Assembly (NCBI GenBank): GCA_026981975.1
Contig: JALSHV010000003.1
Span: 1-64,000 of the forward strand
Direction: 5' to 3'
DNA: 64,000 nucleotides
Origin: Aquificaceae bacterium
Lineage (GTDB): Bacteria > Aquificota > Aquificia > Aquificales > Aquificaceae
In this document: positions 1 through 12,963 of the stretch, piece after piece
How the letters are laid out: each line of letters begins with the position of its first letter
Position numbering within the stretch: position 1 is the stretch's first letter
Translations under genes and position numbers: made by a program
Notes under the pieces: model-generated
Told to the model about the DNA's origin: nothing
What the model saw: only the letters and a program-made list of their open reading frames with translations
Databases searched by the model: none

Positions 1-127
1 CTTGCAGAAGGGTGGTATATGAAAGCTGTGGGTGGTATGGAAAAGAGTATCCATCTTGATGTGGCTCTCTCTTCTTTTATCCTCGCTTCTCTGGGTATCG
101 CTTCCGCTTACGTGATTTTTGTAAAAA
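1..127 (+). repeat. Direct repeat copy A shared by the two nuoL genes
   Basis: Bases 1-127 are identical to 9639-9765, in the same reading frame of the two nuoL genes. Identity ends sharply at base 128. The left end of the repeat lies beyond the window. A perfect nucleotide match without synonymous changes points to recent gene conversion rather than protein-level conservation. Confidence 0.95.
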
Positions 128-528
128 AACTGATTTCTCCGCAAGCTTTGTATACATCTTTAAAACCTCTTGGTGAGCTTCTGAGAAATCAATTTTTCAC
201 AGAATACTTGTATCACAAAGGCTTGGCAAGAGGATATATGTTGGTTTCCAAAGCCGCTTATACCTTGGGAGATAGAACCCTTATAGATGGCACTATAAAC
301 CGCACTTATGTTCTTTTTATAAAAACCGTTAAACTTGTTTGGAAGATTTTTGACGTTAAATCAATAGATTTGCTTCTTCACTGCCTTGCTATAGGTTCCT
401 TCAGGGGTGGTAAGATCCTAAGAAATTTTCAAACAGGGTTACTAAATAACTACATTATGTTTCTTCTTGTAGGAATTATAGTTGTGTTAGGAGTTATGCT
501 TTATCTGCTTGAGAAGGTGAAGGGATAA
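1..528 (+). CDS. nuoL: NADH-quinone oxidoreductase subunit L, C-terminal part (cut by window edge)
   Basis: This is the last 175 codons of a NuoL protein, the large antiporter-like proton-pumping subunit of complex I in the inner membrane. The open frame runs from base 1, so the gene starts outside the window. Residues up to about 42 are identical to the C-terminal region of the complete NuoL at 8238-10079, and the two proteins then diverge but keep the same layout: a transmembrane helix, a charged lateral-helix region with a FFTEYLYH motif, and a final membrane anchor. The stop codon overlaps the nuoM start by one base. It belongs to the first of two complex I sets, whose earlier genes are probably upstream of the window. 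Confidence 0.9.
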   Translation, partial: LAEGWYMKAVGGMEKSIHLDVALSSFILASLGIASAYVIFVKKLISPQALYTSLKPLGELLRNQFFTEYLYHKGLARGYMLVSKAAYTLGDRTLIDGTINRTYVLFIKTVKLVWKIFDVKSIDLLLHCLAIGSFRGGKILRNFQTGLLNNYIMFLLVGIIVVLGVMLYLLEKVKG

Positions 529-2030
529 TGGAAGTGATTAGGGCAGAGTTTCCCTTTATATCTCTTTCTATGATAATTCCAATTGTTTTTTCACTTTTAG
601 TTTTCTTTTTAAATGAAAGATTCACAAGGCTACTTGCTGTAACAGGAACCACTATTGTATTTTTTATTTCTTTATTGCTTCTTTATTTGTTTGATTACGA
701 TAAAGCAAATTCTGTTCAGTTTTACGAAAAATATCCCTTATACGAAGAGTTCAATGTTTACCTGTCCTTAGGATTAGACGGTTTATCGCTTTTGATGTAT
801 TTTCTCACAACTCTTATCTCCTTAGTAGCTGTCGTTTGGTCAATAAGGGATAAACAAATAACTACCAGATTAAAGGAATACTTTGCGGTTTTCCTGCTAA
901 CGGAAAGTTTTCTTATAGGAGTCTTCTCAAGTTTTGATCTTATAGTCTTTTACGCTTTTTACGAGCTTACCCTTATTCCTATGCTTTTTGCCATAGGAGT
1001 TTGGGGATATAAGCTCCGCTTGTATTCTGCTTATAAGTTCTTTATATACATATTCGTATCTTCTTTGTTTTTGTTATTAGGAATAGCCGCCGTTGCAGTT
1101 CAGCATTACTTTAATTACGGAAGCTTTTCCTTTAGTTACTTTGATCTTCTTAAAAACAACTACAATACATCATTAGAAATTTTCATATTTCTGCTTTTCT
1201 TCATTGCCTTTGCGGTAAAGACGCCCATAGTTCCTTTTCACACATGGCTTCCTGACGCTCACGGTGAAGCTCCTACAGCAGGATCTGTTGTTTTAGCCGC
1301 GATTCTTCTTAAAATGGGAACTTACGCTCTAATAAGGTTCAACCTGGGACTATTTCCAGAAGCTTCACTCAAGCTTATGCCTTTTCTGGTAGCCTTAGGA
1401 ATTATTACTATCATATACGCTTCTTGGATGACTATAGTTCAAAACAATGTTAAGAGGTTCGTAGCTTATTCTTCGGTGAGTCATATGGGTTTTATAGTAA
1501 CCGCTACCTTTTTGCTCAACCACGAGGGATTAAGAGCTTCTATTATAGAAATGTTCGCTCATGGAATGACTAGCGCTTCACTTTTTATGATAGCGGGTTT
1601 CATTTACAACAGACTACACACTTTTAACATGGAAAGTCTAAGAGGATCTGTAAGATTTATGCCCCTTTTTGCGGTTATTACAGCTTCCACAGCTTTCGCC
1701 GCCATGGGGCTTCCGGGAGGATCTTCTTTTTGGGGAAAGTTTCTTACTGTTCTTTCCGCAAGGGAATACTCCTATGCCTTAGCCCTTATGGTTCTTGTGG
1801 GTGGTTTTTTCAGCGCTGCTTATATGCTTTATTTGTTGAAAACTCTCTTTTTAGATGTAAGAGAAGAAGGAATTCTTATACATTTTCAAGACATAAGAGG
1901 TTTTAAATTCGCAGCTTTCTTCCTTTTACTTATTCCCATACTTGCAGTGGGATTTTTACCTCATCTGTTCTTCAACATGTTTGACGGATCTATAAACTTC
2001 ATTTTAAAACGCTTAGTAGGATTGGAGTAA
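528..2030 (+). CDS. nuoM: NADH-quinone oxidoreductase subunit M (copy 1)
   Basis: Antiporter-like membrane subunit of complex I that carries one proton channel. The 500-residue hydrophobic protein has the family length. It shows the channel glutamate of TM5 (FYELTLIPM, about residue 147), the TM7 lysine just before PFHTWLPDAH (about residues 232-242), and the EAPTAGSVVLA segment that follows. The ATG overlaps the nuoL stop (TAATG) and nuoN follows after 5 bases, so L, M and N form a tight co-transcribed triplet. A paralogue is at 10091-11566. The two proteins are clearly related but not near-identical. Confidence 0.95.
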   Translation: MEVIRAEFPFISLSMIIPIVFSLLVFFLNERFTRLLAVTGTTIVFFISLLLLYLFDYDKANSVQFYEKYPLYEEFNVYLSLGLDGLSLLMYFLTTLISLVAVVWSIRDKQITTRLKEYFAVFLLTESFLIGVFSSFDLIVFYAFYELTLIPMLFAIGVWGYKLRLYSAYKFFIYIFVSSLFLLLGIAAVAVQHYFNYGSFSFSYFDLLKNNYNTSLEIFIFLLFFIAFAVKTPIVPFHTWLPDAHGEAPTAGSVVLAAILLKMGTYALIRFNLGLFPEASLKLMPFLVALGIITIIYASWMTIVQNNVKRFVAYSSVSHMGFIVTATFLLNHEGLRASIIEMFAHGMTSASLFMIAGFIYNRLHTFNMESLRGSVRFMPLFAVITASTAFAAMGLPGGSSFWGKFLTVLSAREYSYALALMVLVGGFFSAAYMLYLLKTLFLDVREEGILIHFQDIRGFKFAAFFLLLIPILAVGFLPHLFFNMFDGSINFILKRLVGLE

Positions 2031-2035
2031 GGAAA

Positions 2036-3502
2036 ATGCAAGTGAATCAGCCTATAGAAGCTGTAGAATTTCCGAGATTAGATGTATTTATTCCCGAACT
2101 TATTGTTCTGATAACCGCTTTTGTAATTTTTACTCTTGATCTTATTCTTTCATCACCGATGAAAAGAAGAATCCTTCCCATCATTACAGCAACGGGTTAT
2201 TCCCTATCACTGGCTACGGTAATACTATTGAATAAACTAAAAGGAGATACTTTTTACAAAAGCTTCACAGCGGATCACTTGGGAACTGTCGTTAAGACTT
2301 TTGAAATTCTGATAGCTCTAACTGTGATTGTTTTCGCTCAGAAGTATTACAGTTCAAGGAATTCCTTTTACGGTGAGTTTTACTACATACTGTCCTTTAC
2401 TCTTGCGGGAGCTATGATTCTTTCTTCTTCTTACAATCTTATAGTTATCTACGTTGCTCTGGAATTAGTTTCCATAGGTTTTTATATACTTACAGCATTG
2501 CTTAGGAATTCTTTTATTTCAAAAGAAGGAGCTTTTAAATATCTAATACTGGGAGGATTGAGTGTTGCTCTGGCTTCCTACGGTGCTGTGTTTATGTATA
2601 TATACGCTGGATCTTTGGATTTACGGGAGATTCTCTCTTACAAGGGAGAAGATCAACACTATCTGATTTTGGGTTTAGTTTTATTTCTGATAGGCTTTGC
2701 TATAAAGATAGGTGCTGTTCCTTTCCATTTTTGGCTTCCGGATGCTTATCAAGGCGCTCCTACACCTGTAACAGCTCTCATGGCTTCCGTTGGTAAATTG
2801 GCTTTTTTTATTCCAATTGTAAGAATTATGCCTCTTTTGAGGGAAGAGTTCTCCGATGTATGGATTATAACCGTCGGGATAATAGCGGCGATTACTATGA
2901 TCTACGGAAACATGGTAGCTTTGGTGCAGAAGGATATAAAAAGATTGCTGGCTTATTCTTCCATAGCACATTCGGGATACATACTTGCAGGGATTGCTGT
3001 TACGGAAGTCATAGGACTTAAAGCGGTAGTTTATTTCTTGGTAGTTTACACTATTATGGCAGCAGGTTCCTTTTTTGTAATTGCACTATTGGAGCGTATG
3101 GGCAATTGGAAAAATCTGTTACAGGATTTATCGGGAATGCGATTCAATCTTCCTTTTTTGGCTCTTTCTTTCATGATATACATGTTTGCTCTGCTGGGAG
3201 TGCCGCCAACAGTAGGATTTGTAGGAAAAACGCTCGTATTTATGGCTTTATCCTTTGATAAGCTTTGGTGGCTTGCCATTGTTATGATAATCTCCACAGG
3301 GATCTCAACTGGTTACTATGTCCGTATAGTCGTTCTGATGTATATGAAAGATAAAGAAAAAGAATTTTCCCTTAAAGGAACAAATCCGTTGGAGATTATA
3401 TCCCTGACTTTTCTTACACTCCTTACAGTTGGTCTTGCTGTTATGCCGGAATTAATTTTAAATCTTATAAATTCAGCATCAGAAAGCTTATTTCTGAGGT
3501 GA
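2036..3502 (+). CDS. nuoN: NADH-quinone oxidoreductase subunit N (copy 1)
   Basis: Third antiporter-like subunit of complex I in the inner membrane. The 488-residue polytopic protein has the NuoN core AIKIGAVPFHFWLPDAYQGA (about residues 221-241), including the TM7 lysine, followed by PTPVTALMASVGK. It also has a QKDIKRLLAYSSIAHSGY loop. It closes the first L-M-N triplet and is followed 6 bases later by nuoA, which opens the second set. The paralogue is at 11569-12963. Confidence 0.94.
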   Translation: MQVNQPIEAVEFPRLDVFIPELIVLITAFVIFTLDLILSSPMKRRILPIITATGYSLSLATVILLNKLKGDTFYKSFTADHLGTVVKTFEILIALTVIVFAQKYYSSRNSFYGEFYYILSFTLAGAMILSSSYNLIVIYVALELVSIGFYILTALLRNSFISKEGAFKYLILGGLSVALASYGAVFMYIYAGSLDLREILSYKGEDQHYLILGLVLFLIGFAIKIGAVPFHFWLPDAYQGAPTPVTALMASVGKLAFFIPIVRIMPLLREEFSDVWIITVGIIAAITMIYGNMVALVQKDIKRLLAYSSIAHSGYILAGIAVTEVIGLKAVVYFLVVYTIMAAGSFFVIALLERMGNWKNLLQDLSGMRFNLPFLALSFMIYMFALLGVPPTVGFVGKTLVFMALSFDKLWWLAIVMIISTGISTGYYVRIVVLMYMKDKEKEFSLKGTNPLEIISLTFLTLLTVGLAVMPELILNLINSASESLFLR

Positions 3503-3508
3503 GCAGAT

Positions 3509-3880
3509 ATGGAATACATAGGATTTCTTATGTTCTTTGCAGTAATGATAGGAATAGCTCTTGTTATGATTTCCCTGAACTGGCTTTTCGGTCCTAAAAC
3601 ACCTCAAGAATACGAAGATTATCCCTATGAATGTGGAGTTCCTCTTTACGATAAATGTGCCCAGACGACATTTCATCAAGGTTATTATCTGTTAGGATTA
3701 CTTCTTTTGCTTTTTGATATTGAAGCGGCTTTTCTATTTCCCTGGACGGTAGTATATCGGTGGCTTGGAATTTTCGGTTTTATTGAAATGTTTCTTTTTA
3801 TCCTTATATTAACCTACGGTCTACTTTATGCTTGGAAAAAGGGAGCGCTCAACTGGCAATTTGAAAGGGAGGAATTCTGA
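3509..3880 (+). CDS. nuoA: NADH-quinone oxidoreductase subunit A
   Basis: Small membrane subunit of complex I next to the quinone cavity. The 123-residue protein has three predicted membrane helices and the family signatures YECG (about residues 42-45) and FDIEAAFLFPW (about residues 69-79). The usual next gene, nuoB, is absent: nuoCD begins 4 bases after the nuoA stop. NuoB, which carries cluster N2, must therefore be encoded elsewhere, perhaps in the first nuo set upstream of the window. Confidence 0.95.
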   Translation: MEYIGFLMFFAVMIGIALVMISLNWLFGPKTPQEYEDYPYECGVPLYDKCAQTTFHQGYYLLGLLLLLFDIEAAFLFPWTVVYRWLGIFGFIEMFLFILILTYGLLYAWKKGALNWQFEREEF

Positions 3881-3883
3881 AAA

Positions 3884-5668
3884 ATGGCCTGGGCAAGAGA
3901 AAGTGATTTTAGTGATTTGAAAGAACCCTTTAAGACTCTTGAAGTAGTTGAGAATAAAGGGACAACTTCTTTACACGTAAGAAAGGAAGAGCTTCTCAAC
4001 TTGCTAAAAGTTTTAAAAGAGAAAAAGGGCTATAAACTATTCCTTGATCATTCAGTAGTAGATCTAAAAGATATTTTAGAGAAAGATAAAGATTTTAAAA
4101 ATGCTGTTGCAGAAAGTATAATAGCTTTTCCAGAAGATAGAGTTTCCAGATTTCAAGCTTTCTATATTCTCTTTAACGTTGATGAGAAAAAAAGAGTAGT
4201 TGTAAAAACACGCACAAAGGAAACCCTGCCATCGGCGGAAAAGCTGTGGTTTGCCTGCAAATGGGCGGAAAGAGAGTGTTACGATATGTTCGGCATTAAG
4301 TATGAAGGTCATGAAAATCTGGTAAGAGCCTTTATGTGGGAAACTTATCCTTACTTTCCTTTGAGAAAAGACTTTCCCTTGGAAGGGTTTCCTGAAGAGG
4401 AACTTCCTTCGTTGAACGAAGTAATCAAAGGAGATAAACTGCAAGGAACTATGAACTATGAAAGAAAACACACCTTTATTCCCACCTTAGAGGATTTGGA
4501 AATAACGGAAAGAAAACGTTTGCAAAAAAAAGCTCAAATTGTCCTCAACTGGGGTCCTCTGCATCCGGGAACTCACGGAACAATGTGGTTCCTCTTTGAC
4601 TTGGAGGGAGAAAGGATTGTTCAAACTGACGTTATACTGGGACAACTTCACCGAGGGGTTGAAAAACTCGCTGAAAATGAAATGTATAATCAGTTCTTAG
4701 TTTATACGGACAGAATGGACTACTTATCCGCCCTGTGTTCCAATCAAGCATGGGTAGTTGCTGTAGAAAGAATGCTTGGTATAGAAGAGTATGTTCCCGA
4801 AAAAGCTAAATACATAAGAACAATGCTCTCAGAACTTCAGCGGATAAATTCCCATCTCCTTTGGCTTGGAACTTACGCTCTGGACTTAGGCGCTCTTACT
4901 GTGTTTTTATACTGCTTTAAAGAAAGAGAGAAAATTATGGATATTCTTGAAGGAATAACCGGTGCAAGGCTAACAATTTCCTATCCGAGGGTGGGAGGAG
5001 TCAGAATGGACTTACCCTTGGGAGCATTGGAAGCAATAAAATCCTTTACAGGTAGATTCTTAAAAGAGCTAAGGGATTGGGAAAGAATACTTACTCGTAA
5101 CAGAATATGGCTCAAGAGAAACAAAGGTGTAGGAGTTATTCCTCCTGAGGAAGCTTACTTTTACGGCGTTACAGGACCTGTAATTAGAGGTTCCGGTATT
5201 CCCTACGATGTTAGAAAAATTGATCCCTACGATGCTTATGCAGAAGTTGAATTTGACATACCAGTAGGAGAAGAAGGAGATTGTTACGACAGATATTTAG
5301 TGAGAATAGAAGAGATGAAACAGAGTGTAAGAATAGTAGAACAGTGTGTAAAAAAACTTGAAAAATTACCCGAATCAGCTCCTTTTTTTGCAGAGGTTCC
5401 TAAAGAAAAAAAGATAAAACTATCCATGGACGGTATAGGGTTAAAAGTTCCGACTTCAGAGATATACTCCTCAGGTGAAAATCCGCGGGGAGAACTTGGG
5501 TTTTACGTATTTTCAATAGGAGCTATTAAGCCTTACAGAGTTAAAGTAAGACCTCCTTCCTTTTACAATTTGTCTGTATACCCTTATCTGATGAAAAACA
5601 GAGTTATTGCAGATGCGGTAACCATACTGGCAAGTATAGATCCCGTTGTAGGAGAAACGGATAGATAG
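3884..5668 (+). CDS. nuoCD: NADH-quinone oxidoreductase fused subunits C and D
   Basis: Peripheral-arm protein of complex I. The 594 residues join a NuoC-type domain (about 30-190; signature ERECYDMFGIKYEGH, then PLRKDFPLEG) to a complete NuoD domain (about 220-594). NuoD shows the quinone-site loop GPLHPGTHG and the tyrosine of MDYLSALCSN, plus PRVGGVRMDLP. NuoD also helps hold cluster N2 with NuoB. C and D are separate in many bacteria and fused in some others, so the fusion is a known variant. An uninterrupted frame with no internal start excludes two adjacent genes. nuoH follows after 10 bases. Confidence 0.95.
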   Translation: MAWARESDFSDLKEPFKTLEVVENKGTTSLHVRKEELLNLLKVLKEKKGYKLFLDHSVVDLKDILEKDKDFKNAVAESIIAFPEDRVSRFQAFYILFNVDEKKRVVVKTRTKETLPSAEKLWFACKWAERECYDMFGIKYEGHENLVRAFMWETYPYFPLRKDFPLEGFPEEELPSLNEVIKGDKLQGTMNYERKHTFIPTLEDLEITERKRLQKKAQIVLNWGPLHPGTHGTMWFLFDLEGERIVQTDVILGQLHRGVEKLAENEMYNQFLVYTDRMDYLSALCSNQAWVVAVERMLGIEEYVPEKAKYIRTMLSELQRINSHLLWLGTYALDLGALTVFLYCFKEREKIMDILEGITGARLTISYPRVGGVRMDLPLGALEAIKSFTGRFLKELRDWERILTRNRIWLKRNKGVGVIPPEEAYFYGVTGPVIRGSGIPYDVRKIDPYDAYAEVEFDIPVGEEGDCYDRYLVRIEEMKQSVRIVEQCVKKLEKLPESAPFFAEVPKEKKIKLSMDGIGLKVPTSEIYSSGENPRGELGFYVFSIGAIKPYRVKVRPPSFYNLSVYPYLMKNRVIADAVTILASIDPVVGETDR

Positions 5669-5678
5669 GAGGCGCTGA

Positions 5679-6728
5679 ATGGAAAGCGTAGCTCTTAATC
5701 TTGCCGTTGCCTTTGTAAAGATATTGGTTATTCTCGGAATAGTTCTAGGAGTTGGAGCTTACCTGACGTGGGTTGAAAGAAAGGTAGCAGCTCATATACA
5801 AAGACGTCCCGGACCCATGGTGGTGGGCTGGCACGGACTACTTCAACCCTTAGCGGACGGTCTTAAGCTTATAACAAAGGAAGATCTTTTTCCCAGATAC
5901 GGAAATCGCTTTCTCTACAACTTGGCAATAGTTTTAGCACTTGTTCCCGCAACCTTGGTTTTTGCTGTAATACCTTTCGGTCCTGAATTTGAAGTTTTCG
6001 GTTATAAGATAAAACCCATTCTTACAGATGTTAACGTGGCTCTTCTACTTGTTTTCGGTTTAGGATCCCTTGCAGTTTACGCAGTTGCTCTAGCAGGCTG
6101 GGCTTCTAACTCTAAATATCCTCTTATAGGTTCTATGAGAAAGGCGGGAATAATAATTTCCTATGAAGTTGCAATTACCTTTGCGGTTATGGGTCCTATA
6201 ATACTCGCAGGAACCCTTTCCACTTACCAGATAGTTGTAAATCAAATAGAACAGAAGCTGTGGTATGTTTGGATTCAACCTGTAGCTTTTGTGGTTTACA
6301 TGTTTTCCTTACTTGCGGAAACTGGAAGAGTTCCCTTTGACATTCAGGAAGCGGAAGCAGAACTGGTTACTGGTTTTACCGTTGAATACGGAGGAATGAA
6401 GTTCGGTATATTCCCCTTAGTAGAATGGTATATAGAAGTTTTATCCCTATCCGCTATAGCAGTAGTGCTGTTTTTCGGCGGTTGGTCTCCGCTGAATATA
6501 CCCTTCTTAGGCTTTGTAGATCCCTTATTCTTTCTGGGTCCGCTTTCTCCTTTTGTTTGGTTTTTACTTAAAGTCACAGCACTCTTTCTATTTATTCTTT
6601 GGCTCCACTGGACTCTTCCGAGATACAGAATAGATCAGATAACGGAAATGGCTTGGAAGATTATGTTGCCTCTTGCATTGGCAAATATAGTATTTACAGC
6701 GGTAATAGCTCCTTTGATTTGGAAATGA
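5679..6728 (+). CDS. nuoH: NADH-quinone oxidoreductase subunit H
   Basis: Membrane subunit that links the quinone site of the peripheral arm to the proton-pumping arm. The 349-residue protein is of normal length, with eight or so helices. It shows the first-loop signature ERKVAAHIQRRPGP and the second signature ETGRVPFDIQEAEAELV followed by EYGGMKF. An AGGAGGC Shine-Dalgarno stretch lies just before the ATG. Its stop overlaps a 16-codon reading frame that leads into nuoI. Confidence 0.95.
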   Translation: MESVALNLAVAFVKILVILGIVLGVGAYLTWVERKVAAHIQRRPGPMVVGWHGLLQPLADGLKLITKEDLFPRYGNRFLYNLAIVLALVPATLVFAVIPFGPEFEVFGYKIKPILTDVNVALLLVFGLGSLAVYAVALAGWASNSKYPLIGSMRKAGIIISYEVAITFAVMGPIILAGTLSTYQIVVNQIEQKLWYVWIQPVAFVVYMFSLLAETGRVPFDIQEAEAELVTGFTVEYGGMKFGIFPLVEWYIEVLSLSAIAVVLFFGGWSPLNIPFLGFVDPLFFLGPLSPFVWFLLKVTALFLFILWLHWTLPRYRIDQITEMAWKIMLPLALANIVFTAVIAPLIWK

Positions 6729-6775
6729 AAGAAGGAATAAGCTTGAGTAAAATAATCGCTTTCGGAGGTTTGTAA
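6725..6775 (+). CDS. Possible 16-residue leader peptide between nuoH and nuoI
   Basis: The only gap in this operon longer than about 11 bases is filled by a short frame encoding MKEGISLSKIIAFGGL. Its ATG overlaps the nuoH stop (ATGA) and its TAA overlaps the nuoI ATG (TAATG). The nuoI Shine-Dalgarno (CGGAGG) is inside it. It may serve as a coupling peptide, or the frame may be a chance product of a 46-base gap. Nothing in the peptide itself suggests a function. Confidence 0.3.
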   Translation: MKEGISLSKIIAFGGL

Positions 6776-7416
6776 TGGTAAAAAAGCTGAAAGTAAAACC
6801 TCTTAGTTGGCTTGAAAGAATACTTTTCTTAGATTTTATAAAGGGTTTATCTGTAACGATAAAACACGCCTTTAGCAAAACCATAACTACTCATTATCCT
6901 TACGAAAAGCTTACACCTCCTAAGAGATTTCGTGGATTCTTCGCTCACAAAGTTGTTGACGGAAATGAACCCCAACCTGCTTACGATGAATGGGTAGAAA
7001 GATTCAAGATAGAGGTTATCCCCGGTAGAAGTAGGTGTGTGGTATGTATGCTTTGTAAAAGAGCATGTCCTGTGCCTCAACTTTTTCAGATAGAGGGGAA
7101 AAAACTTGAAAACGGAAAAAGAGTGGTAAGCGTTTTTAACATGAATTTGATGTTATGCACTTTTTGCGGATTTTGTGTTGACGCTTGTCCTGTGGATTGT
7201 CTTTATCAAACAGATATTCACGAAACCGCTTCCTTTACCCGTAAAGATGCCATCTTGGATTTAGAACTCCTTGAAAAAATAGGAAGAGATTGGCAGAGTA
7301 GAAGAGAAGAAGAACCTGACAGACTTTGGTCTGATGATGTGGAAAGAAATAAACTATGGTATGAAAACAACTTAAAACTTAAAAAATCGGAGAAAAAGGG
7401 GAGACACGAATGGTAA
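6775..7416 (+). CDS. nuoI: NADH-quinone oxidoreductase subunit I (2x[4Fe-4S] ferredoxin-like)
   Basis: Peripheral subunit that carries clusters N6a and N6b toward N2. Two CxxCxxCxxxCP motifs are visible: CVVCMLCKRACPVP (about residue 88 on) and CTFCGFCVDACPVD (about residue 126 on). The 213 residues include a longer N-terminal extension than in some homologues and a charged C-terminal tail. Its end overlaps nuoJ by 7 bases. Confidence 0.95.
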   Translation: MVKKLKVKPLSWLERILFLDFIKGLSVTIKHAFSKTITTHYPYEKLTPPKRFRGFFAHKVVDGNEPQPAYDEWVERFKIEVIPGRSRCVVCMLCKRACPVPQLFQIEGKKLENGKRVVSVFNMNLMLCTFCGFCVDACPVDCLYQTDIHETASFTRKDAILDLELLEKIGRDWQSRREEEPDRLWSDDVERNKLWYENNLKLKKSEKKGRHEW

Positions 7417-7943
7417 GACTTTTAATATTCACTTTTTTTTCTCTTTGGGCTATAGTATCCGCTATAGGAGTTATTACTTTCACTAATCCGATATACGTTA
7501 TACTTTGGTTGCTCTCAGCTTTAATCGCTATTGCGGGAATATTTTTCACTGCAGGTGCGGAATTGGTAGGAGCGCTTCAACTATTGATATACGCAGTTGC
7601 CATAGCAGTTTTTTACGTTTTTGTTCTGACAGCTGTTCCGTGGGAAAAAGCGGTGAAAAAGAGCAGCCATTACAGAACAGAAGGAGTTTTGTCCTTTCCT
7701 CTTATTCTTCTTCTCTATTTAGAAATAGCTGTTGTTTTTCTTCTGGGGGTTACTGCTTCTCCGGAAGGTCAGCTAAGAGGTTTAATAGAAAAATTTGGTA
7801 ATACGGAGGTAGTTGGTTCTATTTTGTTCAGTAAATACTTTTTTGCCTTTGAAGTAGTATCTCTTGTGCTTTTGATAGGAATGATAGGTGCTGTTCTTAT
7901 AGGAAGAAAGGAGAACCAAACCTATGAAGACGATACCCGTTGA
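7410..7943 (+). CDS. nuoJ: NADH-quinone oxidoreductase subunit J
   Basis: Membrane subunit of complex I with five predicted helices. The 177-residue protein has the NuoJ TM3 region (AGAELVGALQLLIYAVAIAV), which contains the helix that bulges during turnover in known structures, and a GMIGAVLIGRKE end. It overlaps nuoI by 7 bases and nuoK by 20 bases, consistent with translational coupling. Confidence 0.92.
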   Translation: MVRLLIFTFFSLWAIVSAIGVITFTNPIYVILWLLSALIAIAGIFFTAGAELVGALQLLIYAVAIAVFYVFVLTAVPWEKAVKKSSHYRTEGVLSFPLILLLYLEIAVVFLLGVTASPEGQLRGLIEKFGNTEVVGSILFSKYFFAFEVVSLVLLIGMIGAVLIGRKENQTYEDDTR

Positions 7944-8232
7944 AGCTTATTTTGCGGTAAGCACTGCATTATTTGTATTAGGCTTGCTGGGTATGATAGT
8001 TAGAAGGAATCTTGTAACTGTTTTGATGAGTTTAGAACTTGCACTGAACGCTGTAAACGTTGCTTTTGTCGGTGCAGATTATCACATGGGTTTAGTTGAA
8101 GGACAGATATTCGCCCTTTTTATAATAGCTCTGGCAGCTGCGGAAGCAGCTGTAGGTCTGGGAATAATTATTGCTATATTCAGATACAGACTTGTTGATT
8201 CTACCGATGAGATTACTGACATGAGGGGGTAA
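7924..8232 (+). CDS. nuoK: NADH-quinone oxidoreductase subunit K
   Basis: Small membrane subunit of complex I, 102 residues with three helices, related to MrpC. Both conserved membrane glutamates are present: one in LMSLELALNAVN (about residue 38) and one in ALAAAEAAVGLGI (about residue 74). Its 5' end overlaps nuoJ by 20 bases and nuoL begins 5 bases after its stop. Confidence 0.95.
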   Translation: MKTIPVEAYFAVSTALFVLGLLGMIVRRNLVTVLMSLELALNAVNVAFVGADYHMGLVEGQIFALFIIALAAAEAAVGLGIIIAIFRYRLVDSTDEITDMRG

Positions 8233-8237
8233 AGGGT

Positions 8238-10079
8238 ATGGAGAGTTTGATAATATTGCTGTCTCCACTTATCTCTTTTATATTGATTTCTTTTTTCGGA
8301 AAGAGCATAGGGGATAAGATAAGTGGGATAATCACCAGTCTCGCAGGAGCTGTGTCCTTTGTATTTTCCTTAGGAGCGGTATTCAGAAGCTTAGAAGAAC
8401 CCTATCACATAAAACTCTACAAATTTCTTCCACTGGAAGGATACGATCTGTCCGTTGGCTTTTACTTTGATCCCCTATCCTCCATCACCTCCGCAGTGGT
8501 CACATTCGTCGCTACCCTCATATTCGTGTATTCCATAGGTTACATGCACCACGAATTCGGTAATTGGACTTTTAAGTTCTACGCATATCTCTCCCTCTTC
8601 CTCTTCGCTATGCTACTTATCGTCCTGTCCGATAACCTGCTGGGTATCTTCTTCGGCTGGGAAGGTGTCGGCTTGGCTTCTTACTTGCTCATCGGCTACT
8701 ACCACCAACAGTTAAAAGCTTCAAACGCTTCCTTAGAAGCCTTCATCATGAACAGAATCGGTGATTGGCTCTTTATATTCGGTATCATATCCTGTTTCCT
8801 TATCTTCAATTCCCTTGATATCTTGACTATCTTCAATAAAATCCCTTCAGCTGATCCTTACTTCCTGGGATTGGCTACTTTACTCCTCTTCGGAGGTGCT
8901 GTGGGTAAATCAGGACAACTGCCCTTGCATACATGGCTACCTAATGCTATGGCAGGTCCTACACCCGTATCTGCCCTGCTCCACGCCGCTACTATGGTGG
9001 CTGCAGGTGTCTATATGATAGCAAGGCTCTACCCCCTCTTTGATGCCGCTCCCCAAACCCTTAAGTTCGTGGCTCTAATCGGTGGCTTGACAGCCTTGTT
9101 CGCCGCCCTCGCTGCTACTTCCCACACCGATATAAAGAAAATTATCGCCTTCTCTACTATGAGTCAGCTGGGTTATATGTTCCTCGGCTTGGGTGTGGGT
9201 GATCCAGAGGGTGCTATGTATCACCTGACTACTCACGCCTTTTTTAAGGCTTTACTGTTTTTAGCTGCCGGAAGTGTTATAACCGCTTTCCATCATAAGC
9301 TATACGATATCTACAGCTTCGGTGGTTTGAAAAGGTATATGCCCGTAACCTATGCGGGTTTCACTGTCGGAGCTTTGTCCTTGGCAGGTGTTTTCCCTTT
9401 ATCCGGATTTTGGAGTAAAGACAGACTTATAGGTAGTTATTACGAGGTGAGCTTGGTGTGGGGTCTGCTCGGAAGTGTTGTGGCTTTCATAACTGCTTAT
9501 TACATATTCAGAGAAGGTTTTGTGGTTTTCCACGGTGAAGAAAGGTTCAGAAACAGGGTTGGTTATGAAATCAGAGAAGTGGGAAGTGAAATGAAAATTC
9601 CTGTGTTGGTTCTCCTTGTTATGTCTGTAATCGCAGGTCTTGCAGAAGGGTGGTATATGAAAGCTGTGGGTGGTATGGAAAAGAGTATCCATCTTGATGT
9701 GGCTCTCTCTTCTTTTATCCTCGCTTCTCTGGGTATCGCTTCCGCTTACGTGATTTTTGTAAAAAGAATACCTAATCCGGAAAAAGCTTACAGTGCTTTA
9801 AAGATCCTTCACACTACCCTTAAAGAACAGTTCTTCACTGAAAAGTTGTATCACAGAGTTCTTGCGGTAGGTTACTTGAAAGGTTCAAAGATAGTTCACA
9901 CAGTAGGTGAAAAGCACATAGTTGACGGTTTTGTAAATTTATTGGCAACTGCGGTTCAAAATGTTGGAAAAAATCTGCGGTTTGCTCAACCGGGAAAACT
10001 TAATTGGTATGCTTTCGGTATGGTAGGAGGGCTTTCTTTTCTTGTTGTTCTTCTCTTTGTTCTCCTATTTACTGAATAG
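8238..10079 (+). CDS. nuoL: NADH-quinone oxidoreductase subunit L (copy 2)
   Basis: Distal proton-pumping subunit of complex I, 613 residues, with about 15 helices and a long lateral helix near the C-terminus. It shows the TM5 glutamate in GIFFGWEGVGLASYLL, the TM7 lysine in VGKSGQLPLHTWLPNAMAGP, and ALLHAATMVAAGVY. Roughly 8460-9240 uses many C-ending codons (atc, ctc, ttc, gcc) while the flanks and all neighbours prefer A/T-ending codons. Bases 9639-9765 are identical to the other nuoL copy. The gene is therefore likely to be a recombination mosaic. A normal protein is predicted. Confidence 0.96.
   Translation: MESLIILLSPLISFILISFFGKSIGDKISGIITSLAGAVSFVFSLGAVFRSLEEPYHIKLYKFLPLEGYDLSVGFYFDPLSSITSAVVTFVATLIFVYSIGYMHHEFGNWTFKFYAYLSLFLFAMLLIVLSDNLLGIFFGWEGVGLASYLLIGYYHQQLKASNASLEAFIMNRIGDWLFIFGIISCFLIFNSLDILTIFNKIPSADPYFLGLATLLLFGGAVGKSGQLPLHTWLPNAMAGPTPVSALLHAATMVAAGVYMIARLYPLFDAAPQTLKFVALIGGLTALFAALAATSHTDIKKIIAFSTMSQLGYMFLGLGVGDPEGAMYHLTTHAFFKALLFLAAGSVITAFHHKLYDIYSFGGLKRYMPVTYAGFTVGALSLAGVFPLSGFWSKDRLIGSYYEVSLVWGLLGSVVAFITAYYIFREGFVVFHGEERFRNRVGYEIREVGSEMKIPVLVLLVMSVIAGLAEGWYMKAVGGMEKSIHLDVALSSFILASLGIASAYVIFVKRIPNPEKAYSALKILHTTLKEQFFTEKLYHRVLAVGYLKGSKIVHTVGEKHIVDGFVNLLATAVQNVGKNLRFAQPGKLNWYAFGMVGGLSFLVVLLFVLLFTE
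9639..9765 (+). repeat. Direct repeat copy B shared by the two nuoL genes
   Basis: Identical over 127 bases to 1-127. It covers the codons for the loop and helix around AEGWYMKAVGGMEKS. Downstream of 9765 the two genes differ in both DNA and protein. Confidence 0.95.
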
Positions 10080-10090
10080 GGAGGAGTAAG

Positions 10091-11566
10091 ATGGAGCATC
10101 TTTTAACGGTTACAATTTTTCTTCCACTCCTTACAGCTGGCGTTGTTGCTCTTCTTAGAAATGAATCCTTTGCTAAGATAGCTTCTGTATCAGTATCGGC
10201 TTTAGTATTTCTGTTTTCACTTGTTCTCTTCTTGAAGTTTGATTTCAACCGTGAAGGATTTCAGTTTGTAACGAAAATAGACTGGATACCACCCTTAGGT
10301 ATTTCCTATCATCTTGGTTTAGACGGAATGGCAGTTTCTCTTATCCTTATGACAGCCCTTCTTTTCTTCGGAGTTTTTGTTTGGTCTTGGAGAGTAGAAG
10401 ACAGGACTGTTCTTTATATAAGCCTTTTCCTAATGCTGGAAACTGCATGTTTGGGAGTCTTTTCAGCCTTAGACTTTTTCCTTTTTTACATATTCTGGGA
10501 GGGAATGCTTATTCCCATGTATTTCATAATAGGACTTTGGGGACACGAGAGAAAAGTATACGCTGCTAATAAATTCTTTATATACACCTTCTTTGGTAGT
10601 CTTTTTCTACTCTTGGGCTTTGCATCGGTCATAATATACGGATACTTCCAAAACGGATTTATAACCTTTGATTATTTTGAACATCTTAAAATGGAATATC
10701 CTTTATGGCTTCAGAGTATTGCCTTTCTGCTTTTCGCTATAGGGTTTGCTGTTAAGATTCCTATGTTTCCAGTTCACACATGGCTACCTGATGCTCACGT
10801 TGAAGCTCCTACAGCAGGATCTGTAATTTTGGCAGGTGTTCTACTTAAGATGGGAACTTTCGGTTTTGTCAGATACTCTTTGCCTCTCTTCCCTGAAGCA
10901 TCAGAACGTTATGTTCCTCTTATTTTTATCCTTAGTGTTATAGCGGTTATATACGCTGCTATGATGGCTATTGCCCAAACTCATATAAAAAGACTTATAG
11001 CTTATTCTTCTATATCCCATATGGGAATAGTGACTCTTGGCACATTTGCTCTTGATGGAGACGCTCTCAACGGAGCAGTTTACATGATGATAGCTCACGG
11101 ACTTTCTTCTGCCGCTCTCTTTTTTGCTGCGGGATTTATATACGATAGGATTCACTCCTATAACATGGACGATTTGGGTGGTTTAGCTCGTTATCTACCC
11201 AACTTCGCAACAGTTTTCATGATTGCGGGACTTACAAGCATAGGGCTTCCCGGACTTGCAGGATTCATAGCAGAGTTTCTTGTTCTGTTGGGAACTTTCA
11301 AGAAGTATCCTATTTGGGCTATAGCAGCAGGTTCTGGTATGATTCTGGGAGCTGCTTATTTCCTTTACATGTATAAACGGGTAATGTTTGAAGAGGAAAC
11401 TCTTCCCAAAAGCAGAATTGAAAAGTGGAAAAGCTTGAGAGATCTTGAAATCCACCATATCATACCCTTTGTCCTTATTTTATTCGCCGCTTTCTTATTA
11501 GGGCTTTATCCTGCTCCCTTTGTGGAGATAATGAACCACACAGCACGTTTTGTTCTGGGAGGTTAA
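10091..11566 (+). CDS. nuoM: NADH-quinone oxidoreductase subunit M (copy 2)
   Basis: Antiporter-like complex I subunit, 491 residues. It has the TM5 glutamate in FYIFWEGMLIPMYFI, the TM7 lysine in AVKIPMFPVHTWLPDAH, and EAPTAGSVILAGVLLKMG. A GGGAGGAG Shine-Dalgarno precedes the ATG. Its WEGMLIP motif is the more usual NuoM form, whereas copy 1 has YELTLIP, so the two copies may serve different complex I isoforms or positions. Confidence 0.95.
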   Translation: MEHLLTVTIFLPLLTAGVVALLRNESFAKIASVSVSALVFLFSLVLFLKFDFNREGFQFVTKIDWIPPLGISYHLGLDGMAVSLILMTALLFFGVFVWSWRVEDRTVLYISLFLMLETACLGVFSALDFFLFYIFWEGMLIPMYFIIGLWGHERKVYAANKFFIYTFFGSLFLLLGFASVIIYGYFQNGFITFDYFEHLKMEYPLWLQSIAFLLFAIGFAVKIPMFPVHTWLPDAHVEAPTAGSVILAGVLLKMGTFGFVRYSLPLFPEASERYVPLIFILSVIAVIYAAMMAIAQTHIKRLIAYSSISHMGIVTLGTFALDGDALNGAVYMMIAHGLSSAALFFAAGFIYDRIHSYNMDDLGGLARYLPNFATVFMIAGLTSIGLPGLAGFIAEFLVLLGTFKKYPIWAIAAGSGMILGAAYFLYMYKRVMFEEETLPKSRIEKWKSLRDLEIHHIIPFVLILFAAFLLGLYPAPFVEIMNHTARFVLGG

Positions 11567-11568
11567 AA

Positions 11569-12963
11569 ATGAACTGGAATGCTCTCATACCAGAATTCGT
11601 GCTTTCGGGAGGGATACTGCTTTTGTTTGCTCTTGAGCTTTTTTTAAGAGAAAAGTATTACAGGTTCTTTACAGCTTTAGCAGCTGTTATTGTTTTAATA
11701 TCTTCCTTTTCCGTTTTAATGGTAAATTACCCTGTAAGCACACTTTTTGGAGGTTTTTCCGTTAGTGCTTTTAACTTAACTGCTAAATTTCTCCTTGGAA
11801 TCATTACCGCCTTGGTTTTGTTGTCTTCTTACGATTTCTTTGAAAAGAAAAACTCTGCTTACGGTGAGCTTTCTTATCTTTACTTAATAACCCTTTTAGG
11901 TTTTATGTTTATGTTATCCTCGGAAAATCTCGCCATTGTGTTCGTTGGACTTGAGCTTGCTTCCATTAGTATGTATATACTTGTGGGGCTTTTTAGAAAA
12001 AACTATATCTCAAAAGAAGGAGCTTTTAAGTATCTAGTTCTTGGAACAGCCGGAACTTCCATGTTCGTGTTAGGAACAGCCTTTGTATACGCTTCTACGG
12101 GAACACTTGTTCTTAATCTTCAAAAAGGAAGTGGAACTTTTTTTGCCTTAGGTGTTTTGCTTCTTATGTCCGCTCTTGCTCTAAAAGTTTCAGCTTTCCC
12201 TTTCCATTTCTGGACTCCAGATGCGTATGAAGGCGCTCCTACACCAACAACATCTTTTTTAGCTACTGTTCCTAAGGTAGCTATCTATTTCCTTTTTGCA
12301 AAATTAACACTGTATCTTTTCTCTTCTTTGACTTCTTGGAAATTTTTAATAGGATCTATTGCTATCGCTTCTATGTTCTACGGGAACTTCCTTGCTTATG
12401 CTCAAAAAAGTGTAAAGAGGCTTTTAGCTTATTCTTCCATTGCTCATGCGGGTTACTTTACATTAGCACTTACTTTAGCGGATAAATTCCTTATATCTTC
12501 ACTTCTTTTTTACGTTTTCGTGTATGCTCTTTCAACCTTGGGAGCTTTTACAGTCCTTTCAATCCTTGAAAAGAAAGATCTGTGGACTCATAACTTTTCA
12601 GATTTCAAAGGAATTGCAAAAGAACACCCTGTTTTAGCGTCTTTTTTAGCTTTCTTTTTATTTGCTCTTATAGGAATACCACCTATGGCAATATTCGTAG
12701 GTAAACTGGGTATATTCATGGGACTTATTAAAGGAGAAATGCTCATACTCTCTATTCTTTTCGTAATAGCAAGTGTTATATCCGCAGGATACTATTTAAA
12801 AGTTATAGTTTATATGTTTTTCTTCCAAAAAGAGAAAAGCTTCGGTGCGGTGAAGGTTTCCACAGGGGAATCCATCACACTTATGATAAGTTCAACAGGA
12901 ATCCTTCTGCTGGGAATATTTCCGGGAATACTGCTGGACTATCTTTTTAGACTACCCTATTGA
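11569..12963 (+). CDS. nuoN: NADH-quinone oxidoreductase subunit N (copy 2)
   Basis: Antiporter-like complex I subunit, 464 residues. It has LALKVSAFPFHFWTPDAYEGAP with the TM7 lysine and the AQKSVKRLLAYSSIAHAGY loop. It starts 2 bases after nuoM and ends the nuo block. Its last 7 bases overlap the end of a convergent lipoprotein gene, leaving no intergenic space for a separate terminator. Confidence 0.94.
   Translation: MNWNALIPEFVLSGGILLLFALELFLREKYYRFFTALAAVIVLISSFSVLMVNYPVSTLFGGFSVSAFNLTAKFLLGIITALVLLSSYDFFEKKNSAYGELSYLYLITLLGFMFMLSSENLAIVFVGLELASISMYILVGLFRKNYISKEGAFKYLVLGTAGTSMFVLGTAFVYASTGTLVLNLQKGSGTFFALGVLLLMSALALKVSAFPFHFWTPDAYEGAPTPTTSFLATVPKVAIYFLFAKLTLYLFSSLTSWKFLIGSIAIASMFYGNFLAYAQKSVKRLLAYSSIAHAGYFTLALTLADKFLISSLLFYVFVYALSTLGAFTVLSILEKKDLWTHNFSDFKGIAKEHPVLASFLAFFLFALIGIPPMAIFVGKLGIFMGLIKGEMLILSILFVIASVISAGYYLKVIVYMFFFQKEKSFGAVKVSTGESITLMISSTGILLLGIFPGILLDYLFRLPY

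Follow-up and report, generated by a model that had tools for sequence, protein, structure and literature searches.

The 127-bp identity between the two nuoL genes of this heat-loving Aquificaceae bacterium is very probably the k-mer-long edge of a nuoL repeat of about 1.37 kb, kept alike by recurrent gene conversion. In the process we propose, each of the two genes would be part of its own complex I gene set, the two sets being old and diverged, and homologous recombination, most likely RecA-dependent, would repeatedly overwrite one nuoL core with that of the other. The membrane antiporter core would thereby be near-identical in both sets, while the tail (the lateral helix and the last TM helix) and all other nuo genes would go on diverging.

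The repeat and the edge of the assembly

The window analysed here is a stretch of 64,000 nucleotides, bases 1-64000 of contig C3 in an assembly of 29 contigs and 1.61 Mb, and its base 1 is the first base of that contig. All features discussed lie on its forward strand. It opens with the 3' part only of nuoL-1 (1..528), a gene of the long-tail type, comprising the end of the TM region, the lateral helix with an insert and the last TM helix. This is followed by nuoM-1 (528..2030), which goes together with the long tail in all genomes examined, and by nuoN-1 (2036..3502). The second set begins with nuoA2, CD2, H2, I2, J2 and K2 (3509..8232) and continues with a whole nuoL-2 of the short-tail type (8238..10079), the tail of which (9766..10079) is not homogenised and has 48% nucleotide identity to that of nuoL-1, and with nuoM-2 and nuoN-2 (10091..12963), which accompany the short tail. 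As a side observation, nuoB is carried by set 1 only, on contig C17, and is absent from set 2 at 3509-8232.

Window positions 9639-9765 are identical letter for letter to positions 1-127, the match is in frame within both nuoL genes, and it is the sole exact repeat of at least 40 bp in the window. To the right of it, a few hundred bp suffice for the identity to drop to background. The exact match with divergence directly after it, as described in the earlier note, is confirmed. What does the length of the match signify? In a pairwise comparison of the ends of all 29 contigs, with four contigs masked, an exact overlap or coincidence of 127 bp was seen in six further contig-end pairs of the same assembly (C8_L/C28_R, C15_L/C19_L, C15_L/C9_R, C16_L/C17_L, C18_L/C29_R and C12_R/C14_R). 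Because other contig ends share exactly 127 bp, this length is technical: it is the assembler k-mer of a k=127 de Bruijn assembly and no biological boundary. In such an assembly the last k bases of a repeat would stay on the unique branch, and the contig would end there. Both the 127 bp and the left end are thus features of the assembly, and since 127 is the k-mer carry-over at a contig end, the true repeat almost certainly reaches further left than window base 1. From the comparison of repeats and contig ends, positions 1..127 at the left end of C3 are at once a k=127 overlap and the right-hand terminus of the tract that nuoL-1 shares with nuoL-2.

The first 263 nt of nuoL-1 were located on contig C17, where they follow nuoA1-B1-CD1-H1-I1-J1-K1 and close the contig on the right. 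This piece is diverged up to nuoL-2 nt 161 and identical thereafter (103/103 nt), which bears out the expectation that the true tract is longer than 127 bp. No further nuoL fragments were found elsewhere in the genome. Read most simply, this is a single collapsed tract covering nuoL-2 nt 161-1528, that is window positions 8398-9765 on the forward strand, or 1368 bp, with its ends seen on C17 and C3. The nuoL-1 core is unassembled in this genome, and the presumed identity of nt 264-1401 is drawn from the two ends and from the relatives. C17 enters the repeat by 103 nt only, less than k, so the k-mer overlap does not show the join of C17 to the repeat; its end falls 24 nt short of k=127, perhaps by a coverage gap. 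The smallest contigs are about 2 kb long, and a diverged 1.2-kb middle of nuoL-1 could have been filtered out; the extent of the tract is judged from assembled contigs.

A homogenised core in the whole family

For comparison we used 14 Aquificaceae relatives with both nuoL genes whole, from six genera and mostly in one- or two-contig assemblies. The suggested comparison with related genomes turned out clearly: the nuoL core has a nucleotide identity of 92-100% between the two copies in all 14, with exactly identical runs of up to 1693 bp (0.6-1.7 kb in most genomes). Over residues 552-613, the tails of the two copies show about 42-68% identity in these relatives, and past the right boundary about 43-60% at the nucleotide level. 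Because the other paralogue pairs (A, CD, H, I, J, K, M and N) lie at about 47-70% nucleotide identity, one lower value for M stemming from a truncated gene, and lack long exact runs (the longest is 41 bp), homogenisation is confined to nuoL.

The histories of core and tail are in conflict. In a tree of the core, the two nuoL copies of each genome are sisters, and the long or short label requires 15 changes among 15+15 rows, the maximum. In a tree of the tail, from a short alignment of 62 columns with some long branches, the long and short types split once (1 change; support 97/91). We further counted, for pairs of genomes, core sites that are concerted, at which both copies are alike and differ from both copies of the other genome, against sites that are paralogue-shared. 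The ratios in four genome pairs were 66:0, 219:0, 293:0 and 375:0 for the core, and 0:43, 6:36, 2:38 and 5:11 for the matching tails. The conflict of the trees, together with these counts, strongly supports recurrent gene conversion after an old duplication, long-lasting and family-wide. Gene conversion between the nuoL copies, as proposed in the earlier note, therefore stands in kind, though as a published, family-wide and long-lasting process and not as a local event. The pattern is that of recurrent concerted evolution by the criteria of Wang & Chen (PMC6053082): same-genome nuoL paralogues form a supported clade in the 14 relatives; both copies have syntenic orthologues, the tandem order being common to genera g1, g2, g11, g13, g15 and g16; at least five species are involved (14 genomes, six genera); and synonymous and non-synonymous sites are both alike. 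Identity over nearly the full length is not found for nuoL here, where the tails have diverged.

Could the likeness have another origin? The contig ends exactly at the match and the match has the length of the k-mer, as would be expected of a pure assembly artefact in which the end of a single nuoL was copied to a second place by the assembler. However, the two genes differ in their tails, each is preceded by its own nuoK and followed by its own nuoM and nuoN, and closed relatives hold both nuoL genes with the same pattern, which makes this origin hardly credible. An assembly join at the repeat had been named beforehand as grounds for abandoning conversion; the contig does break there, and the closed relatives show the repeat to be real nonetheless. 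The core is a conserved antiporter domain, and strong purifying selection alone might keep two such domains alike without conversion. Yet third-codon positions of the core are identical between paralogues as well, in the long exact runs described above; in the nearest other genomes the core orthologues have only 68-94% nucleotide identity while same-genome paralogues agree; and in eight of nine genome pairs not one core site has the paralogue pattern. We regard the contribution of selection alone as practically negligible as an explanation.

Taken alone, the core tree would suggest that nuoL was recently duplicated in every lineage independently, in place of conversion between old copies. This origin is at odds with the two tails, which are old types across the family, each with its own type of M and N, and which do not pair within genomes; both copies moreover have their syntenic orthologues, and a duplication that replaced an old copy in its core only would be gene conversion under another name. 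Recent duplication is thus highly improbable, and recurrent conversion of old copies remains the reading on which we build.

Where conversion stops

Across genomes, the left limits of the homogenised tract fall at residues 1-52 and the right limits at residues 483-573 (nuoL-2 numbering). In every genome the right limit either precedes or coincides with a roughly 27-residue insert, which in the window occupies approximately 307..387 of the forward strand. The insert follows a DGxxN motif; every long tail carries it and no short tail does. We assigned this region to the lateral helix by alignment to E. coli NuoL, whose C-terminal region has been described in the literature, with a lateral helix that runs over NuoM and NuoN (PMC3046159). 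Conversion ends at or before the lateral-helix insert of NuoL-1, excluding the C-terminal tail. The suggestion that part of NuoL is kept the same in both complex I sets can accordingly be widened to most of the gene, with the tail exempt. The selective reason may be that each tail is tied to its own NuoM and NuoN, to which it would be fitted, and that conversion past the heterologous insert is blocked or disfavoured; insert and divergence would also halt recombination mechanically.

AlphaFold models of both tails have low confidence (mean pLDDT 58-59), with modelled helices at 47-116 and 119-141 in the long tail versus 47-86 and 91-112 in the short tail, only a hint of a longer helix in the former. 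A 26-residue lateral-helix insert is known from the 2M complex I, in its NuoL, and also from complexes that lack an extra pump (Yu et al., PMC9040806; for 2M complex I, Chadwick et al. 2018, as cited in PMC9040806 and PMC6606698). The Aquificaceae long tail resembles these in having a lateral-helix insert of similar size, 27 residues at DGxxN, its putative equivalence to that of the Nitrospira protein being judged by size and region. In contrast to 2M clusters, which carry a second nuoM, each Aquificaceae set has one nuoM. With the insert present and one nuoM per set, the long tail fits the insert-bearing complexes without an extra pump; recruitment of an extra pump subunit by the long-tail complex is improbable at best. 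L116, considered as a possible 2M relative, has no insert.

Apparent exchange of modules between the two sets

In most genera the usual order is [A1 B1 CD1 H1] I1 J1 K1 - L(long) M1 N1 - A2 CD2 H2 I2 J2 K2 - L(short) M2 N2, A1-H1 being located elsewhere in some. An exchanged arrangement was seen in Aquifex- and Hydrogenobacter-like genomes: in G042 and G031 (loci L200/L201 with flanks L222-L225, and L198/L199 with flanks L218-L221, respectively), L(short) M2 N2 lies behind the K1 module, and L(long) M1 N1 behind the K2 module. Locus b of G042 is permuted (I2 J2 K2 L(long) M1 N1 A2 CD2 H2) beside a locus a of I1 J1 K1 L(short) M2 N2, and the second locus of G031 is permuted as H2 I2 J2 K2 L M1 N1 A2. 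Permuted ends also occur in the drafts G038 and G039 (H2 end), G036 (A2 end) and, in a third genus, G072 (H2 to CD2). Gene f28 lies downstream in G042a, G052 and G064; the upstream flank is not shared. In G031, nuoH2 (L199 ~6183-7250) is split into two frames and nuoCD2 is not adjacent to nuoA2. G037 was set aside for its inconsistent tree position and likely contamination.

How might such arrangements arise? A crossover between the nuoL cores would release the intervening unit; if this unit then opened elsewhere and was reinserted, a permuted order would follow. The same end state would be reached if the tandem cluster broke first and a crossover at nuoL came afterwards. The outcome looked for in a test of crossover between direct repeats, a permuted unit order with exchanged junctions, was found in G042. 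The N-terminal sequence was of no use as a witness of the crossover, the N-termini being homogenised too in G042. Since G031 and G042 fail to group on the tree of the set genes (AU p 2e-54), at least two exchange events would be needed if the tandem order is ancestral, as supported by the deep-branching Hydrogenobaculum genomes, on which the root was placed by assumption.

The swapped and permuted arrangements might instead combine breaks of the tandem cluster with assembly mis-joins at identical nuoL cores, without any crossover. Such a mis-join is possible in G042, where the two cores form an inverted repeat without a mismatch over 1580 bp, and in G072, and similar joins exist at low coverage in the drafts G016 (C222) and G054 (C28). 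In G031, however, it is unlikely because the copies differ by about 2%; they are direct repeats some 45 kb apart in a two-contig genome. The same junctions also recur on contigs from other congeneric MAGs (L105, and L108 from a MAG that seems partly contaminated). We therefore consider an origin from breaks and mis-joins doubtful, and on balance lean towards the nuoL core as a standing exchange site between complex I types, at which at least two reciprocal crossovers would have re-paired the distal pump module of NuoL tail, NuoM and NuoN with the other NuoA-K module. The unit between the cores would probably have existed for a time as an excised circle of some 9.6 kb. Since an extended lateral helix distinguishes the two distal modules, hybrids would result in which the antiporter core is constant. 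The low-coverage contigs L102 (G016 C222) and L106 (G054 C28) join nuoK2 to a long tail or nuoK1 to a short tail, and are either mis-joins or real recombinants.

Discussion

Concerted evolution of nuoL has already been published: Table 1 of Wang & Chen (2018, Commun Biol, PMC6053082) gives nuoL in Aquificales, with 6 species and 2075 Ma, as a long-lasting, recurrent case. Our case agrees with theirs in the gene, the taxonomic order and the greater closeness of paralogues than orthologues, synonymous sites included. For most of the genes listed there the identity covers nearly the full length, with partial cases left for the future, and its text does not discuss the limits of the nuoL tract; here, in contrast, the tail stays outside the tract in all genomes, and this exclusion and the apparent module exchange are what our analysis adds. 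The concerted evolution of tufA and tufB in bacteria, discussed in the same paper, is similar in that two distant copies are kept alike by conversion, but the tuf copies encode the same product, whereas the proteins encoded by the two nuoL genes remain distinct in their C-terminal tails and are part of separate complex I sets.

There is also a practical side. Short-read assemblies of Aquificaceae lose or break nuoL at the repeat, and joins across it may be wrong. The nuoL core is missing or broken in the near-complete drafts G038, G039, G051, G053, G056, G057 and others, a defect that is probably technical, the repeat most likely having been collapsed. In the one-contig genome of G017 (C1), both contig ends lie within nuoL-2, again at this repeat (L182, L183).

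The case tells a real, long-lived evolutionary process apart from an assembly edge that mimics the boundary of a tract. For the family, it provides a map below the level of the gene of where conversion is tolerated in a respiratory complex, in the antiporter core and not in the lateral-helix tail, and, if the exchanges are real, it would put natural hybrids of two complex I types on offer.
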